A stretch of 35,222 bases of DNA, taken from positions 1 through 35,222 of the IMG/VR virus record IMGVR_UViG_3300047312_000123; one strand, given 5' to 3'. Below, in pieces: positions 3,114 through 34,714 of the stretch. The notes below the pieces were generated by a model. That model was not told where the DNA came from. It searched no databases and worked only from the letters and a program-made list of their open reading frames with translations. The stretch's first letter is position 1, and every line of letters begins with the position of its first letter. Origin of the DNA: a virus. Made by a program: the position numbers and the translations under genes.

Positions 3114-4034
3114 ATGAAGATCGAGCGCATCGAGATCACGGGCCGCGATCAATGGCTGAATCTGCGCAAGCCCGACGTGACCGCCAGCGTCGTTGCGGCC
3201 CTTTTCGGCGCTCACCCGTACACATCTGCACTCAAACTGTATCTCGCTCACTCGGGGGTCGAATTCGACCAGGCCGACGATCGCGTCTTGCGGCGTGGTC
3301 GTTTGATGGAACCGGCTGTCGCGCTGGCGGTGAGCGAGGAGCGGGCGGAATGGCAGATCGAGAAATGCGATTCTTACTATCGCGACCCCGACTTGCGGCT
3401 CGGCGCCACTCCCGATTTCTTCATTCACGGCGATCCGCGCGGCCTCGGCGTTTTGCAAACCAAGACCGCCGCGCCACACATCTTTGAGCGCGACTGGGAA
3501 GGCGGCGCCACGGTGCCGTTTTGGGTTCAACTGCAAGTGCTCACCGAAGCGATGCTGACCGAGGCCGCCTTCGGAGCCGTCGCCGTCCTGCGGGTCGATG
3601 CCTTCGATCTCGCATTGGCCATCGTCGAGGTGCCGCGCCACCCTGCCGCCGAGCAGCGCATCAAAGCGGCGGTCGCCCAATTCTGGGAAGACGTTGCCGC
3701 CGGCCGGGAGCCAGATCCCGATTACGGCAAGGATGCCGAATTGCTCAAGGTGATCGCGCCGCACGAGGTTGTCGGCACGACGGTCGACCTGAGCGGCGAC
3801 AACGAACTGCCCGCGCTGCTCGAGCAGCGGGAGGAAATCATGACGGGGATCAAAGGCTTCGAGGCCCGCAAAGACGAGATCGAAACGATGCTGAAATTCA
3901 AAATGCGAGACGCCGAGAGTGTCGTCGGCCTGCCCGAATGGGGCATCAGTTGGAAAAGCCAGCATCGCAAAGAGTTTGTCGTGCCGGCCAAAGACGTTCG
4001 CACGCTCCGCATTCACCACAAAGGACAACGCTGA
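3114..4034 (+). CDS. YqaJ-family viral recombinase (lambda exonuclease-like nuclease)
   Basis: A 306-residue PD-(D/E)xK exonuclease expected to degrade one strand of dsDNA ends and hand single strands to the RecT annealase. Visible elements: TASVVAALFGAHP (about 23-35), the family N-terminal segment; GRLMEP with acidic E66; GATPD with D101; LQTKT (114-118), the Q-x-K form of the catalytic motif; then PFWVQLQ (136-142), the conserved helix carrying Q139 and Q141. The C-terminal third is a charged helix typical of this family. The stop overlaps the next start (TGATG at 4032-4036), indicating translational coupling with recT. Identification is confident; whether 5'-to-3' activity is retained cannot be read from the sequence. 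Confidence 0.9.
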   Translation: MKIERIEITGRDQWLNLRKPDVTASVVAALFGAHPYTSALKLYLAHSGVEFDQADDRVLRRGRLMEPAVALAVSEERAEWQIEKCDSYYRDPDLRLGATPDFFIHGDPRGLGVLQTKTAAPHIFERDWEGGATVPFWVQLQVLTEAMLTEAAFGAVAVLRVDAFDLALAIVEVPRHPAAEQRIKAAVAQFWEDVAAGREPDPDYGKDAELLKVIAPHEVVGTTVDLSGDNELPALLEQREEIMTGIKGFEARKDEIETMLKFKMRDAESVVGLPEWGISWKSQHRKEFVVPAKDVRTLRIHHKGQR

Positions 4035-21253: not shown

Positions 21254-21629
21254 AGGCCAGGTTCCACTCCAGTGTTACTTGTGTTTTCTGCTCGCGATAA
21301 AGCAAATAGGTTATGCGTTCCATCTCGACATAGACCTGATCGTCACCAGGATTGTATATTCTGACAGTGTCTATGACCTGACGCTCGCGTACCCAAAGCG
21401 GAAAGCGCCGCCCGACAGCACTTGCGGGCGACGAACCGGCCCCCGGCATACCATTGCCGCCGGGGAGCGCCTTGAGTTGCTGCGCAACGAGATTAATCTG
21501 GTTAAGCGCTGCGATAGCTGACGGAAGATCGGTCGCCGGCACGATCGCCTGCTGCGCAGGCGGCGTGCTGATGACGCCTTCGCTGCGGCTGACCGGGCAG
21601 ATTGGTGCGGTGCCGTTCCCGTTGCTCAT
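21237..21629 (-). CDS. Small virion-associated protein, paralogue 3 (130 aa)
   Basis: Start at ATG 21629 (MSNGNGTAPICPVSRSEG), overlapping the stop of the large tail gene (ATGA); a longer reading upstream lies inside that gene. Shares the C-P-V-S-R box, TDLPSAIAALNQ and the distal VWRERQ-like region (WVRERQVIDTVRIYNPGDD, EMERITYLLYREQ). First of the three tandem copies in transcription order. Confidence 0.65.
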   Translation of the reverse strand: MSNGNGTAPICPVSRSEGVISTPPAQQAIVPATDLPSAIAALNQINLVAQQLKALPGGNGMPGAGSSPASAVGRRFPLWVRERQVIDTVRIYNPGDDQVYVEMERITYLLYREQKTQVTLEWNLAYGTPS

Positions 21630-23926
21630 ATGAGCCCGAGCTCCTTGACGCTTGTCGCCACCTGGACGTTTGACACCACGACCCTGCCTTCCACTTCGAA
21701 CTGCCACGACTCATATTTACTCCTGGAATAAATTCGCAACAGTTCACCAGAATATCGTAGCTCTCTAGTCTGATAGAGCTGGTCATCAGCATAGACACGT
21801 AAAATACCATACTGCTGTGGACCTAGCACTGGCTGCGGATCATCCGTATCTCGATCAACTTGCGCCGGCGTCGTGCCCGGCACCGTGAACCACAGCTTCA
21901 TAGCCGCGAAGTTCTTACGCGACAGCTGCTGGTAGATTTTAGACCGCCATTTGTATGGCACAATCACCGGATTGGCGTCGGTGAAGTCGTAATAGTAAAT
22001 CGATCCATTTTGAACCAACATCGCAATGCCGGTCCACGGATCAAGCTGTATGTTGTCGATGTCGAAATCATTCGGGCTGGATAGTTGCCCAAACCCCAGC
22101 CTGTGGCCACCTGGCTGTGGCCAGACTGTGAAGCTGGTCTGGTCCTGCGGCGACAGTTCGACCGTGAACCCCTGCCGGATGATGTTAGGACTGTCTTGGA
22201 TAGAGCCGAAGGCAAAATAACTCGTCGCGTGTTTGATTGCCCGCACGTGTTTCTGCGGTGTCAACGCCTGCCATCGCTCGCGCGTGATCCAGCCCTCGGT
22301 GACGTTGGAACCGGCACCTGACTGGCTGATCTGGATAAGACCATTCTGCGAGACGTATAAAACAGTAGTGTCCGTGCTGATTATGCTCCCTCTGTGCAGA
22401 CACGGTTCCGGCAGGTTGATCTTGGTGAGCGCCATGGCGGACGGGTTCACGCCGCTGGCCACGTAGGGCGAACCTTGCGTGCATATGACGATGGATTGCC
22501 CGCACACGCCAATACCGACGATCGGAAACTCGGTCGTGAGCACGTAGCCAGACGGCCAAGCATGCGGCCGATAGGCTTCCGAGAACCACAGCTCGTTCGA
22601 CCGCCAGCCCACCGCGATCCCGTTGGGGAACGATACGATGCCCTGCATGTCCGTCGGCGGACCGAACCAGTAATACGACAGCAGCTGACTGTTCAACGCC
22701 ACGACATCGTCGCCGATCGTGTCGACATAGACCGCCTGCGTGACCGGGATTTCGGCTACGAAGAAATACGTCCCCTGTCCGGATTGATTGGTAATGGACC
22801 GGTAGATGCGCGTGGTCTTGATGTTGCGATCCGGCGGCCACACAGTCCCGCTACCGTCAGTGCCGCCGCCCATGTTGTTGAGCGTCGGCATGAACAATTC
22901 GATCCGCCAGGTTCCGTTCGACCAACCGTTGACCACCGTCGGCAAGGACGGTGGACCCTCCTCGCCGTACTCCGTCACCCATGTGTAGACGTAGGCCCGT
23001 GCCACGAACACCGAAGCACCGAACAAATCAGCCCACACCTGGAACGTCGCTGTAGTAGCCACGCTAGGGATATTGAGAAAATCCGGAGCGCCGTTGCTGA
23101 ACACAGCAGTGTATGCCGCACCACTGTTGGTGTTATCGGCAGTCAACAAGTAGTACGGAGCGTCGGTCTGGATACCGACCCAATATGTGAGATTGGCAAC
23201 AACGGATACGCTGTTGGAGAATGAGCCAACCTGTGTTCCACCTGACAAATTCGCAATCGTGTCGTTGCCGACACCTAGAAGCTGATACGGCTTGCCGTTG
23301 AGATCGTCATATACGACAGCCCGAAACATTAGCTGGTTGCCGCTTCCATCCGGGATCAACGCAAAACTGACGTCGTTTATGAGCATGGTGCCGCCAGGGA
23401 CGATCGGCACCAGCACGATCTCGTTGCCGGGGATGTAAGTCTGCGCTCCGCCGGTGGGCCCGATGTTCTGGAAGCCCAGCTGGGACGTATCGCCGCCGCC
23501 TGTGATGGTCACACCCGGAGCGCAGCCCGACGCCGGCACGCCCAGCATCCACCAGGATTGGTCTTGCATGATCCGGTCGTAAGTATTGTACCTCGGCACG
23601 TCCGACGGAGATGCTGCGTAGTACCTTTGAAAACTGTCATCAACAACCGGCGTGCGAATGACATTCGTATCGGGATCCGGGAATTCGAGCCACTTGGAGT
23701 CGCTGGCCGTGATCAATGTGTCGTTGGTGCGCCTATCTGGAATTCTATATACATACTTTGCTGCAGTATTATTTAGTTGGCGTAGCAGCTTGGGCTGCCG
23801 CCAGCCGATGAGTGCGCCGCTGAACAGGTAGCAATTAAGAGAGTAGTCCGACTGACCATCCGGAAGTAATCTTGAATCCCACGAGGGAAGCATCCCGCCA
23901 AAACGGTCTAGTTTTATCGCTGTCAT
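21626..23926 (-). CDS. Large tail/structural protein (766 aa)
   Basis: Start chosen at ATG 23926 (TTGAGGCACATC before it). The N-terminus MTAIKLDRFGGMLPSWDSRL, then LLPDGQSDYSLNCYLFSGAL, matches a family of large proteins in short-tailed phages with a G-G-x-x-P-x-x-D-x-R-L-L-P-x-x-x-A start. The body is beta-rich with Asn/Tyr/Gly loops and an Asp/Ser-rich mid-region. The C-terminus (EGRVVVSNVQVATSVKELG) resembles the end of such proteins. It could be a tail-tube (nozzle) or beta-propeller protein like T7 gp12; that parallel is based on size and position only. Confidence 0.65.
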   Translation of the reverse strand: MTAIKLDRFGGMLPSWDSRLLPDGQSDYSLNCYLFSGALIGWRQPKLLRQLNNTAAKYVYRIPDRRTNDTLITASDSKWLEFPDPDTNVIRTPVVDDSFQRYYAASPSDVPRYNTYDRIMQDQSWWMLGVPASGCAPGVTITGGGDTSQLGFQNIGPTGGAQTYIPGNEIVLVPIVPGGTMLINDVSFALIPDGSGNQLMFRAVVYDDLNGKPYQLLGVGNDTIANLSGGTQVGSFSNSVSVVANLTYWVGIQTDAPYYLLTADNTNSGAAYTAVFSNGAPDFLNIPSVATTATFQVWADLFGASVFVARAYVYTWVTEYGEEGPPSLPTVVNGWSNGTWRIELFMPTLNNMGGGTDGSGTVWPPDRNIKTTRIYRSITNQSGQGTYFFVAEIPVTQAVYVDTIGDDVVALNSQLLSYYWFGPPTDMQGIVSFPNGIAVGWRSNELWFSEAYRPHAWPSGYVLTTEFPIVGIGVCGQSIVICTQGSPYVASGVNPSAMALTKINLPEPCLHRGSIISTDTTVLYVSQNGLIQISQSGAGSNVTEGWITRERWQALTPQKHVRAIKHATSYFAFGSIQDSPNIIRQGFTVELSPQDQTSFTVWPQPGGHRLGFGQLSSPNDFDIDNIQLDPWTGIAMLVQNGSIYYYDFTDANPVIVPYKWRSKIYQQLSRKNFAAMKLWFTVPGTTPAQVDRDTDDPQPVLGPQQYGILRVYADDQLYQTRELRYSGELLRIYSRSKYESWQFEVEGRVVVSNVQVATSVKELGLI

Positions 23927-24356
23927 GATGTGCCTCAAGATATTCTATCAGTTGCTGCAACCGCTCGACACTGTCTTTGACATGACCCAAAGCTAAATTG
24001 CAGCCGTTACAAACAATCTCGCGCACCTTCTTTGTGCCGTGACAGTGATCAAGACTCCATTGTCCGTTCTTCCGCCCCGGATTAGTGCTCCCACATGCCG
24101 CGCACTTCATCCCTTGAGCGGCCCACATAGCTTCGTACTGTTCAGGTGTAAGACCATAGTGGCGCTTAAGATCGTGCTTCTTCATAGAAGCAAGCCATTT
24201 CTCCCGGTTTTCTTTCCGCCAACGAATCCCTTGAGCACGATTCTTAACCTTCCCTTTTTCAGACTGGTTGTATTTGCGGACGGATGCTTTGCGTTTTTCC
24301 GTCCGCGCATACTCACGTTGATACGTGCGCTTTCTTTCGGGATCGCTATAAGTCAT
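23835..24356 (-). CDS. Endonuclease VII/HNH-type homing endonuclease
   Basis: Encodes 173 residues. An N-terminal basic helical region (ERKRTYQREYARTEKRKAS) precedes the endonuclease VII zinc/HNH core: C85-x2-C88 (CAACG), SLDHCHGTKKVREIVC with D103-H104-C105-H106, and C116-x2-C119-N120. Such proteins cut DNA and often spread as free-standing homing genes between phages. The ATG overlaps the previous stop (ATGA), while its last 92 bases overlap the start of the large tail gene. The Shine-Dalgarno and ATG of that gene thus lie inside this one. The insert is visibly lower in GC than its flanks, consistent with recent arrival. Confidence 0.85.
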   Translation of the reverse strand: MTYSDPERKRTYQREYARTEKRKASVRKYNQSEKGKVKNRAQGIRWRKENREKWLASMKKHDLKRHYGLTPEQYEAMWAAQGMKCAACGSTNPGRKNGQWSLDHCHGTKKVREIVCNGCNLALGHVKDSVERLQQLIEYLEAHHDSDKTRPFWRDASLVGFKITSGWSVGLLS

Positions 24357-25349: not shown

Positions 25350-25461
25350 CGCCGTATGCCTCTATGACCCTATGCTCTCCCGGCACCACGATCACACGTT
25401 CTTCCGCAGGAACAACGCTGATCCTGATCTGCTCCGGCACGATGATCGTATCCTCGCTCAT
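25333..25461 (-). CDS. Tiny protein, 42 aa
   Basis: ATG 25461 overlaps the stop of the collagen-like gene (ATGA-type, TATGAGCG), and its end overlaps the next gene. Sequence is beta-strand like with repeats of valine-rich pairs ([33 protein letters not shown]); three V-P-x-E units suggest a small repeat. Its position between coupled genes supports it being real, though function is unknown. Confidence 0.55.
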
Positions 25462-26759
25462 AGCAACGCCCCATAGAACGTCGTGACGAAATTGACCGCA
25501 GCCACCGTCGTCGTGGTGGCGGAAGGTGAGAAGCAATAGCACTCGTAGTAGTCGGTACCGTTGGCCTGGTCGACGGTATCCACCTGAGTATACGCCGAAT
25601 TCGACGTAGACTGCGCGCCATTTTGCACGATGCAGGCGCCGTTCTTGAATATCATGACCTGCGGAAACACGTTGTTGCGGACGCCTGCCGAAAAAAACAG
25701 CCCGGCCCCGAGATGCACGATCCCGGCCGACGGCGTCCAACGAAAATTGGTGGCGTCGTACTTGTTATTGACGTCGAATACCTTGGTGGCGAACTTGAGT
25801 TTGGTGTTCGTGCTGTCGACAATGCCGGTCTGGTTGGTTGCCAGCTTGGCCCGGAATGCATCCTTGATGCCGGGTGGCGATCCCGTGGGGCCTGTCGTAC
25901 CGGTCGAGCCGGTCAAGCCGAGTGGCCCGGTCAATCCGGTGGGTCCCGTAGGGCCGATCGCGCCCGCAGGACCCGTGTTGCCGGCTGGGCCCGTAACGCC
26001 GATGCCCGTGGGGCCGACACCAAACGGACCCGTATTGCCGGTTGGCCCGGTCAAGCCTAGAGGGCCAGTCGGACCCGTCAACCCGCGCGGGCCGGTATAT
26101 CCGGTCGGCCCGTCGACGCCGTTGTAGCCGTCGACACCGCGAGGGCCGGTGGCGCCGACGCCAGGACCTGTGGGCCCCGTGGCGCCTGTAGTCGAAGCAA
26201 ACCCCGCCGGACCTGTTGCGCCAAGTCCCGTCGGCCCGGTGGCCCCTGTCGATCCCAACGCACCCGTTAGTCCAGTCGGTCCTGTAAAACCCGCGACACC
26301 CTGTGGTCCCGCAAATCCTATGACGCCCTGCGGCCCCTGCGGGCCCACCACGCCCTGCACCCCGGCCACCCCCGACGAGCCAGTTGGTCCCGTAAAACTC
26401 GACCCGGTAGCCCCAGGGGGACCGTTGGCGCCCACGAACCCCACCGGACCCTGCGGTCCCGTCGATCCGGTGGCACCCTGAAGAGCCGCCTGACCAGGCG
26501 CGCCCGTCGGCCCGGTCTGTCCGATACCAGCCGGGCCCGTAGCCCCGGTCGACGATGCTGCACCAGGAGAACCGGTCGGCCCGATTGGCCCAACATTACC
26601 CAAGGCGCCGGGTGCCCCAGTAGCGCCAGGCGCACCCGTCGGACCGCCAGCAGGACCGGTCGGGCCAGGACCACCCGCAGGACCGGACGGGCCCGCAGGC
26701 CCCGACACCACCACAACCGGGCGGGTCGCGATCGGTGCTGCGGGCGCCGGGTTGGCCAT
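25458..26759 (-). CDS. Collagen-like fibre protein with C-terminal head (433 aa)
   Basis: N-terminus [20 protein letters not shown], then about 270 residues of Gly-X-Y triplets rich in GPTG, GATG and GPQG (about 18-300). A globular C-terminal head follows (about 305-433: [49 protein letters not shown]...), resembling C1q/TNF-like heads of bacterial collagen fibres, which trimerise the triple helix. Likely a phage tail fibre or decoration fibre. The repeats are Thr- and Pro-rich, with no long interruption. Confidence 0.85.
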
Positions 26760-32013: not shown

Positions 32014-34714
32014 TTATCCGCCCGAGATGACCTGCGCCTGACAGAGCGCAGTTCCGTCGATTACCTGATCCTTTATCTTCATAACGAGACGCTACTCTCG
32101 CTACCGCCTTTCGGCTGCTGCATGTTCCCATGCAGAGGAGACTATATCATCACCCACTTGGGGTGCCGGGCGCTTCGGACCGCTTGGTCCTACGAGCTTG
32201 CGCTCTAGTCGTTGCACCTTCCGCTCACGCGGCTTGGCTCAGGATTGGCCGGTCTGGCGTTCCCCTGAATTCACCCGGTTGTTCGATGCCGATTACTCGG
32301 CAAAGGGACTTCAAGATTGTTAATCCGTACACCTGCAGGCCGCGAAGGATCTGACCAAACGTTAGCTCAGAGCGCAGAGTCTCGAGTTTCGAAATTTGCG
32401 ATGCGAACGTAATCCCGTGGGCGTGGCCAGCAAAGATCGGAAACTCGCCCGCTGAGAAGTTGGCTGAATCGCTCGCGTTGGTCGGCAGCAGGTTCGAGAT
32501 ATACAACGTGAATCGATCAATCATTCCGAGCCGGCCATTGCGCAGCATCGAGACCGGATCGCCCGACAGATAGGCCTGCCTGAGTTCCGACTGCTTGATC
32601 TGTCGTCCGGCCCACGCCGGCATCACCACCCAGCGGCCGACCTCCGGGATGTTCTGCTCGTCGAGGCACTCCCCCATGCGCAGAAGCAGATCAATCAGAT
32701 TGGACTGACCGGCCGTCGCACCCTGCCCGACCACCGTGATCGGCGTGCCCTTGATGCCGAGGTTGAGATTGGCGTACTTCCCGGCCGTCGCGCCGCGGTT
32801 GGTCGCCGCGCATTGCCCGACGATGCCGTCGAGCACTTCCGTGTCGACCGCGATCTTTAGCTGCTGTGCCGCATCCCTTATCTTCATAACGAGACGCTAC
32901 TCTCGTTACCGCCTTTTGGGCTGCTGCATGTTCCCATGCAGAGGAGACTATATCATCACCCCTTTCGGGGGCCGGGCGCTTCGGACCGCTTGGCCCTACG
33001 AGCTTTCGCTCTAGTCGTTGCACCTTCCGCTTGCGCGGCTTGGCTCAGGATTGGCCGGTCTGGCGTTCCCCTGAATTCACCCGGTTGTTCGATGCTAATT
33101 GCTCAAGCAAAGGGACTCTGACGAATCCGACCAAATAGACAGGACATTCAGATCGCTCTGCACCTCCATCACGTCGTCGAGGATCAGAGAGAAGTAAAAG
33201 CCGTTGCCGATGTAGAGTTCGACCGAGCCTCCAGTCGGTCGATCAAGACCGAGCAAACCGTCCGCCTGATACTTGCGGATCGTGATCGTAGGCTTCGTCC
33301 GGATTTTCACCCGGTCGCCTTGGTTCGCGATTTCGCCTTCGTAGTCGGTCGCTAGCGTCTCAGGCGCTTACCTGATCTGCTTCCCACTGTCGCTTACGCT
33401 GTTGCGCACCAGGTCCCATGAACGACGGAATATCACGTACCGTCGCCAGAAGCCTGGCCACTTCAGCGCCCGGACCACTCAGTCTGTGCGGCTGGACTTG
33501 GAGTTGTTTCATCGCCAATTGGATACGCTCCGCGTCGCGGAAATGTCCCATCCTGGCGCAACCAATAAGAAAATACGCCTGATCGTTCTTGAGCACCATG
33601 TGCTTGGCCAATGCAGTTTTACCGCTCTCGAACATCGAGCGGACTTTGGCCGCGTCCATAGACAGCACCCAATTAACCATCGACGTACCATTCTCGGTTA
33701 CAAACTCCTGAACGGATCCTCCGTAAGCCTTCTGCAACAGATCGATACCAACCCGTTCGAAGGCTTCATCGCATACCGAAAGCACCGGCTGTGCCGACAT
33801 GCCCTTTGGAATGCGAATTGCAAACGATCCGTTCCCGTCGATATATCCGGCTGCCCATTTTCGTGTCGGATGTTTCGGCATTGGAGATGCGCCTCGCGCT
33901 GCATCAAACCGCTGCTTCCCCACCTGCACGTCCATAACCTCGCCGTTCATATCGATGGCGCAGTCGGCAAGTGCTCTTTTCAAGACCAGGAACTTGCGAA
34001 GCCGCATCAGAACGCTGACAGCCTTGGTGCCCGCTGTATTCCAGTGAAAAGCACCACTCTTTTCATACATTCCAATATGCCCCCACACTTTATCGAGTGA
34101 AGGCGGCGTCAGACTGGACGCAATCAACTCCATGAAACTACGACCCGGTGCTTTCTGACAAAACGAAACTACAGCGTAAGCACGCTGCGGCCCTGTTCCG
34201 TCCCAGTTTTCGCGCCGCATCGGTGGATTCCACATCAACTGAATGCTTCCATCGCTATCCAACAGTCCTGCAAGGTACTTGTCGCTGAGCCGGTCCTTGC
34301 CTCTGGTTCCCTTCGGTTCCAGTTTTTCAGGTCCGGTATTGCTCGAACTACCGTTTAATTCGAGATCGCGCTCAACACGGTTGAGGCGTAGCTTTCCGAC
34401 AAAAGCCGGACCGACTATCGCTTCAGGGGCAACCCCTGCTGGATCACTTAGTCTGTGCGGGTGCGTGCTCATGCTTCCCTCGGGTTCCAGCCAACTATGA
34501 AGGTTCCCGTTTTTCAGATCCAGTTTAAAGAAGTCCTAGCGAACTTCTCGACCAGCTTAGCTGCATTCAGAACTGATCAAATTTGGCCAGCTTGGAACCA
34601 AATTTCCGGAATAAAGCCCGTTGATTGGAGTAGGTTTCCGGTAGACCCTACGGGGGTCAGGGGCGGGACTGAGCCTGACGTTGCGCCAGGAAAACCCGCA
34701 CTCGGGATAGGCAT
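32014..34714 (-). CDS. Major capsid protein, interrupted by three group I introns
   Basis: Exons on the minus strand: E1 about 34714-34597, E2 about 33352-33125, E3 32875-32323, E4 32069-32014. E1 encodes MPIPSAGFPGATS ... LQSTGFIPEIW. E2 encodes ATDYEGEIANQGDRVKIRTK ... FYFSLILDDVMEVQSD ... IWSD. E3 encodes DAAQQLKIAVDTEVL ... RWVVMPAW ... LRNGRLGMIDRFTLY ... GLQVYG. E4 encodes QVIDGTALCQAQVISGG. This is a HK97-fold-type major capsid family; F-I-P-E-I-W, T-D-Y-E-G-E-I, D-x-E-V-L and R-N-G-x-L-G-M-I-D-R-F are hallmark segments. Removing introns 2 and 3 joins W-S-D/D-A-A and V-Y-G-Y/Q-V-I-D exactly as the family expects. The E1/E2 join is unresolved, see the findings. Scaffold-like gene upstream, adaptors downstream. 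Confidence 0.88.
32070..32322 (-). ncRNA. Group I intron 3 in the capsid gene (253 nt, no ORF)
   Basis: Read on the minus strand. P1: exon GGAT pairs with GTCC, U-G at the splice site. P2: TGCCGA-gtaa-TCGGCA. P/Q: AATTCAGGGGAACG and CCAATCCTGAGCCAAG. P6 tip CCGC-GTGA-GCGG. R: TGCAACGACTAGAG. P7.1 GAGC-GCAA-GCTC. P7.2 GGACC-aagc-GGTCC. P3 CCGGG/CCCGG. P8 CACCC-caagt-GGGTG. S: GATGATATAGTC. P9 CTGCATG-ggaa-CATGCAG and two small 3' hairpins. It ends in ...AAAGG with the terminal G. The presence of P7.1/P7.2 suggests subgroup IA, common in phages. Splicing yields the codon T-AT (Tyr) and the capsid sequence VYGYQVIDGTAL. Confidence 0.93.
32876..33124 (-). ncRNA. Group I intron 2 in the capsid gene (249 nt, no ORF)
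   Basis: About 90% identical by eye to intron 3. P1: exon GGAT-TC pairs with GAGTCC. R: TGCAACGACTAGAG. S: GATGATATAGTC. The differences preserve pairing or swap tetraloops: P8 CCCC-cgaaa-GGGG, P6 loop GCAA instead of GTGA, P7.1 loop GAAA instead of GCAA, P7.2 GGGCC/GGTCC, 3' stem TAACGAGA/TCTCGTTA. Removal from 33124 to 32876 joins TCGGAT to GATGCGG, giving I-W-S-D-D-A-A-Q-Q-L-K as expected for the capsid family. Confidence 0.93.
33353..34596 (-). ncRNA. Group I intron 1 in the capsid gene, carrying a homing endonuclease
   Basis: Boundaries approximate. Minus-strand core: P1 option AAATTTGGT/GCCAAATTT (exon U-G wobble, 5' splice after 34597) or GAAGTT/GACTTC (5' splice after 34542). P3 GGATC/GATCC. 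P4 CGGG/CCCG around AAACGGGAACC and GGAACCCGAGG. R GCACAGACTAAGTG. P8 CAGGGG-ttg-CCCCTG. S AAGCGATAGTCGG, pairing GACTA/TAGTC in P7. The core (34550-34395) is of a different lineage from introns 2 and 3: no P7.1/P7.2 is visible and the R element resembles the CACAGACTAAATG form. The endonuclease ORF begins inside the core and runs through the 3' region almost to the exon. Confidence 0.82.
33360..34472 (-). CDS. LAGLIDADG homing endonuclease (intron-encoded, 370 aa)
   Basis: Two motifs make it a single-chain, pseudo-dimeric enzyme: YLAGLLDSDGSI (about 66-77; D72 is the likely metal ligand) and WAAGYIDGNGSFAI (about 206-219; D212). Spacing of about 140 residues is normal for the family. It would cleave an intronless capsid allele near the intron site and drive intron homing by repair. 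The first about 60 residues are read from the intron core and may not belong to the folded enzyme; a later start (e.g. near RLSDKYLAGL) is possible. The stop lies within a few bases of the downstream exon. A 20-base segment encoding HRLS is repeated near both ends of the ORF. Confidence 0.9.
   Translation of the reverse strand: MSTHPHRLSDPAGVAPEAIVGPAFVGKLRLNRVERDLELNGSSSNTGPEKLEPKGTRGKDRLSDKYLAGLLDSDGSIQLMWNPPMRRENWDGTGPQRAYAVVSFCQKAPGRSFMELIASSLTPPSLDKVWGHIGMYEKSGAFHWNTAGTKAVSVLMRLRKFLVLKRALADCAIDMNGEVMDVQVGKQRFDAARGASPMPKHPTRKWAAGYIDGNGSFAIRIPKGMSAQPVLSVCDEAFERVGIDLLQKAYGGSVQEFVTENGTSMVNWVLSMDAAKVRSMFESGKTALAKHMVLKNDQAYFLIGCARMGHFRDAERIQLAMKQLQVQPHRLSGPGAEVARLLATVRDIPSFMGPGAQQRKRQWEADQVSA

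Follow-up and report, generated by a model that had tools for sequence, protein, structure and literature searches.

The major head protein gene of the window (the whole stretch of DNA analysed, a complete IMG/VR record of 35,222 bases that may itself be incomplete) is interrupted five times, and four of the five inserts are complete group I introns, one of them (1008 nt) putatively so. We consider it probable that the gene combines these four introns with one 33-nt, core-less, group I-like mini-intron, and that the ribozyme of the intron downstream of this element excises both inserts. The anatomy that ties the mini-intron to its neighbour is well supported, and the reaction is what we infer from sequence.

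Architecture and complete introns of the capsid gene

The gene lies on the minus strand, as do all its features given below, from an ATG at 34714 to a stop codon ending at 32014. A previous sequence-only reading had placed an interrupted major head protein gene at the same coordinates, with which our spliced alignment agrees, and had counted three group I introns; we found five interruptions instead, i.e., four complete introns and one core-less element. Its first intron resolves into three inserts (34596-34564, 34541-34392, and 34357-33350) with exons of 22 and 34 nt between them, and a single-intron reading of this 5' part was rejected, as it would delete the conserved SAKLVEKF and YASTVLSAISN. 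The five inserts (33, 150, 1008, 249, and 253 nt) were delimited by spliced protein-to-DNA alignment against intronless relatives, in which introns of any phase were allowed and U and G boundaries were rewarded, and all of them start after U and end with G. When this reward was removed, the last three inserts kept identical boundaries and the first two merged; the boundary assignment of the 33-nt and 150-nt inserts depends on the U/G preference. The merged insert, which is 183 nt long and leaves the reading SVRLLSESY, was rejected because intronless relatives show SAKLVEKFY or SGKLVEKFY at this place.

According to the spliced alignment, exon 1 (34597-34714) encodes MPIPSAGF...FIPEIW plus the first base of a Ser codon, exon 2 (34542-34563, 22 nt) encodes SAKLVEKF with split codons and contains the target of helix Px as well as the 5' strand of P1b (see below), and exon 3 (34358-34391, 34 nt) encodes YASTVLSAISN. 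They are followed by exon 4 (33125-33349), exon 5 (32323-32875), and exon 6 with the stop codon (32014-32069), which encodes QVIDGTALCQAQVISGG; exons 1 and 6 also agree with the open spliced coding sequence. The joined exons form a coding sequence of 1008 nt (335 amino acids plus stop) with no internal stop. Alignment of the spliced protein to capsid families, proposed as a check by the sequence-only reading, gave a match to PHROG 267 'major head protein' with an E value of 8e-39, the query being the provisional spliced sequence. A separate intact capsid gene, which the same reading had named as evidence against its proposal, was also looked for: only one MCP locus is present in the window record, possibly a fragment, and only one in each of seven related records (eight records including the window). 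Furthermore, pN/pS was 0.13-0.30 in every exon block, that is, purifying selection, in an allele set consisting mostly of mini-intron alleles. The insert arrangement of the window was also found in contigs L003, L004, and L576, and IMG/VR yielded no copy of its exon 1/2 junction in spliced or empty-site form.

The two 3'-most inserts, at 32876-33124 (249 nt) and 32070-32322 (253 nt), had already been assigned to group I, and the RF00028 covariance model bore this out with 77.5 bits (E = 3e-18) and 83.4 bits (E = 5e-20), above the gathering score of 50 bits. With the boundaries from our spliced alignment (33124-32876 and 32322-32070), their junctions read WSD/DAAQ and VYG-Y-QV in the spliced protein, as in intronless homologues. 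The two introns share 93% identity across 240 aligned bases; therefore, one gene holds the same intron at two sites. Among the relatives, this repeated intron occupies both sites in L009, only the first in L159, and only the second in L165. The P, Q, R, and S core elements, previously read in each interruption, are absent from the 33-nt insert, which has no core.

The 150-nt insert (34392-34541) is a complete group I intron whose P3, P4, P6, P7, and P8 are backed by covariation. In the core alignment 98.4% of cells were paired and 12 pairs had changed on both sides, giving a covariation score of 0.396 compared with at most 0.093 in slid versions. It aligns with small introns of relatives (160 nt in L009 and 137 nt in L234) and with the complete introns found at residue 36. 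It had no RF00028 match even at a relaxed Rfam threshold; small divergent group I introns can escape Rfam. No relatives of this region were found among isolated phages. The wider claim that several group I introns sit in one capsid gene is thus upheld by the Rfam matches, the covariation of the 150-nt insert, the exact junctions, and purifying selection. A total of four complete introns would set a modest record for a single capsid gene.

The boundaries of the 1008-nt intron (33350-34357) come from the spliced alignment and its core was read by eye only, with P3 (CCGGACC/GGTCCGG), P4 (CTGG/CCAG), and the R and S elements; it had no Rfam match at the relaxed threshold. It carries a putative LAGLIDADG frame, part of an open frame of 370 amino acids (33360-34472) with the motifs LAGLLDSDG and AAGYIDGNG. 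This frame showed a weak match to Pfam LAGLIDADG_1 (16.8 bits against a cut-off of 23.1) and a match at 2e-10 to PHROG 5046, a family named HNH endonuclease; judging from the motifs, which look like LAGLIDADG, the HNH label may be wrong. The frame extends upstream of 34357 across exon 3 into the 150-nt intron, in a different frame, and because of this overlap the true start of the endonuclease is probably further in. A sequence like the R element of the 150-nt intron (CCGCACAGACTRAGTGRTCC) is repeated near the 3' end of the open frame, where it would serve the 1008-nt intron as its R element. A related endonuclease occurs in a Pseudomonas phage, for which the comparison covered the annotated neighbourhood.

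Anatomy and recurrence of the mini-introns

The 33-nt insert (34564-34596) sits between FIPEIW and SAKLVEKF, follows a U, ends with G, contains an in-frame TGA, and is absent from intronless relatives. Its guide strand GCCAAATTT (34579-34587) pairs with the end of exon 1, AAATTTGGU (34597-34605), to form a P1 helix, here called P1a, which includes a U.G pair at the splice site and appears in both the sequence and the minimum free energy fold. The adjacent P10 strand AGCTG (34588-34592) pairs with CAGCT (34559-34563), the first bases of exon 2, as read from sequence and duplex energy, and the tail strand GATCAGTT (34571-34578) pairs with exon 2 bases 34550-34557 (AGCTGGTC) to form Px. The insert therefore bears the splice-site marks of a group I intron, namely the 5'-site U, P1 with U.G, P10, and the terminal G, with the proviso that the boundary choice itself rewards U and G. 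A catalytic core of their own (P3-P8) is absent from this and the other mini-introns described below, which are too short for one at 31-40 nt. Such an element may act like a group I intron, to judge from these marks, and yet not be a complete member of the class. In the best fold of the window, P1a, Px, and P1b (the P1 of the 150-nt intron) are consecutive with no unpaired bases between them, and P3-P9 of the 150-nt core come next; P7 is a pseudoknot and so lies outside what this fold can show.

Ten distinct mini-introns of 31-40 nt, located at residue 36 or 39, were found in the MCP genes of the window and its relatives. They are not all independent: two insertion sites are involved, which together with the downstream introns make up about six to nine combinations. 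Additional scans mainly returned the known classes once more. P1 and P10 are present in all ten. At residue 36, the P10 strand tracks the 3' exon, being GAGAT with ATCTC or ATCTT in mini-introns and GAAAT with ATTTT in complete introns. Every mini-intron contains an in-frame TGA, and the length is not a multiple of three in seven of them. Because of these stops and frameshifts, together with purifying selection and the single MCP locus, the mini-introns must be removed or skipped. Read-through of UGA was rejected as a general answer, since seven of the ten inserts also shift the frame. Distant relatives also gave alignment 'introns' of 21-36 nt, at residues 12 and 270-271; these resemble variable coding loops and were excluded.

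Pairing with the downstream intron

A complete intron lies 22-81 nt downstream of the mini-intron in all ten versions, while none of ten complete residue-36 introns has a second intron within 120 nt. The downstream intron, at residue 43, 44, 46, 60, or 63, varies in group I type: some examples match RF00028 and others are of the 150-nt type. Exon bases immediately before its 5' splice site pair with the mini-intron tail at -12.3 to -17.9 kcal/mol. This duplex ranked 1-54 among about 880-1000 exon windows, with shuffled-tail P values of up to 0.022. On free folding, a Px of 8-13 pairs formed in nine of the ten cases. Its exon side stops 8 or 9 bases short of the splice site, and in these nine there are 0-1 unpaired bases between it and P1b of the following intron. 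L009 has a tail duplex of -12.9, yet Px is missing from its best fold.

The Px criterion was met by 328 of 4000 shuffled tails. Tails swapped between classes met it in 2 of 32 cases at sites 60-63 and in 19 of 40 at sites 43-46, and because these counts differ, the evidence for specificity of Px is strong at sites 60 and 63 and weak at 43-46. No Px-like helix of comparable length and fit was found between consecutive complete introns; the L156 row was disregarded in this comparison, as it paired a spurious N-terminal gap with a mini-intron.

Proposed reaction, alternatives, and context

On the basis of these pairings, we propose removal of the mini-intron at the RNA level by the following route, in which both the catalyst and the order of steps are predictions. 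The complete introns would self-splice with GTP. The mini-intron retains only the splice-site markers, i.e., the U, a guide for P1 (with U.G) and P10, and the terminal G, and Px would keep P1a next to the 150-nt intron's core. The usual group I order is P1, P2, P3; here, Px and P1b would occupy the places of P2 and P2.1. The 150-nt core could thus take P1a first as a substrate for the GTP cut, after which exon 1 would be joined to exon 2 behind the terminal G of the mini-intron with P10 as the guide. The same core would then dock its own P1 (P1b) and excise itself. The early stop in each mini-intron could hold ribosomes off Px and the core. More generally, we lean towards the existence of natural core-less group I introns, guide-only elements of 31-40 nt that would cede catalysis to a neighbouring ribozyme through a helix between their tail and its 5' exon.

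This route has to be weighed against other fates of the inserts. Splicing of the mini-intron in RNA by another catalyst, either a different intron of the gene or a ribozyme in trans, would draw on the ability of group I cores to recognise P1 and P10 in trans, known from engineered systems (PMC4094466), and on the presence of several introns in the same gene. We regard it as unlikely, given that the tail pairs with the exon next to the closest downstream intron, wherever that intron lies and whichever type it is, and that several alleles (e.g., L232, L070, and L065) hold just one further intron. The residue-36 mini-introns have their site and guide in common with complete introns of 302-713 nt, as would be the case if the inserts of 31-40 nt were dead, core-less remnants of complete introns and the gene non-functional in these genomes. 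This is quite improbable in view of P1, P10, the terminal G, and Px being kept across ten distinct versions, of the purifying selection on exons and the lack of a second MCP locus in the records, and of the constant complete intron close downstream, which is not expected of remnants.

The remaining two explanations would leave the mini-intron in the RNA or remove more than it. The bypass element of T4 gene 60 interrupts its gene for some tens of bases and includes a stop codon and a hairpin. The mini-introns resemble it, since their size fits, a stop codon comes early, and a hairpin lies at the upstream border, so that ribosomes might skip an insert that the RNA keeps. However, translational bypassing is very unlikely because the take-off and landing codons match in none of the ten cases (CCT against ATG, AAG, CAG, or TCG; TGG against GCA), and it leaves the group I splice-site marks (U, U.G, P10, and terminal G) and the neighbouring intron unexplained. 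Alternatively, the 5' site of the mini-intron might be used with the 150-nt intron's 3' site and exon 2 be skipped, as happens to short exons between group I introns in Twort orf142 and Coxiella according to the account in PMC10136302. The loss of this 22-nt exon would shift the frame and delete SAKLVEKF, which is conserved in intronless homologues, and skipping has in our estimate only the slimmest chance of being correct.

Compared with known systems, the proposed arrangement of one core serving two introns combines familiar parts in a different way. LittleE has a single intron in its capsid gene (PMC3706429), where a capsid intron of phage Tuc2009 is also cited; Bastillevirinae carry two or three in polymerase or terminase genes (PMC11878797); and Twort orf142 holds three with exon skipping, as described in PMC10136302. 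LittleE, Twort orf142, and Bastillevirinae are like the present case in having group I introns in essential phage genes, some with homing endonucleases, but with at most three per gene, whereas here one capsid gene has four complete introns and a core-less element. Twort orf142 and the Coxiella 23S rRNA, the latter with exon skipping between tandem group I introns, resemble it further in that two introns flanking a short exon act on each other; in contrast, as PMC10136302 describes them, both introns there have cores and the exon is lost, and here the first is core-less and the exon is needed. An engineered Tetrahymena 'spliceozyme' removes, in trans, a 100-nt intron in vitro and a 64-nt intron in E. 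coli (PMC4094466). Such spliceozymes and trans-excision ribozymes likewise use one core and two splice sites to remove a separate short intron, but they are engineered, act in trans, and carry the guide on the ribozyme, whereas the reaction we infer here would be natural and within the same transcript, with the guide in the mini-intron and Px as the tether. No natural core-less group I intron was found in the open-access literature, which covers a minority of subscription papers.

In this phage clade the capsid gene is a hot spot for introns, with 28 of 175 distinct alleles interrupted at many sites (L003-L013, L020, L032, L054, L065, L070, L082, L156, L159, L165, L232-L236, and L394). Three or more interruptions occur in 6 of the 175 alleles; in distant relatives, a few of the N-terminal calls stem from alignment artefacts. 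The 137-nt intron of L234 (4863-4999), aligned across the whole core and preceded by a 995-nt intron and a 20-nt exon, is to our knowledge among the smallest group I introns. In L236 the residue-36 intron, otherwise 670-710 nt long, measures 302 nt, its endonuclease gene apparently mostly deleted. By capsid protein, the closest isolated phages have Rhizobium hosts. Elsewhere in the window lie genes for a RecE-like exonuclease (3114-4034), an internal virion protein (phrog_511; 21626-23938), and tail fibre (25458-26759).

Annotation pipelines will overlook exons and introns this short. A mini-intron of 31-40 nt with a 150-nt ribozyme is also small and quickly testable in vitro. Introns that have lost their catalyst and kept their splice-site guides have been postulated as a stage on the way from self-splicing introns to the spliceosome. 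If the proposed reaction is true, two introns would share a single RNA catalyst, a group I analogue of the presumed step toward dependence on a shared splicing machine, and this would show how phages gather introns in a highly expressed gene.
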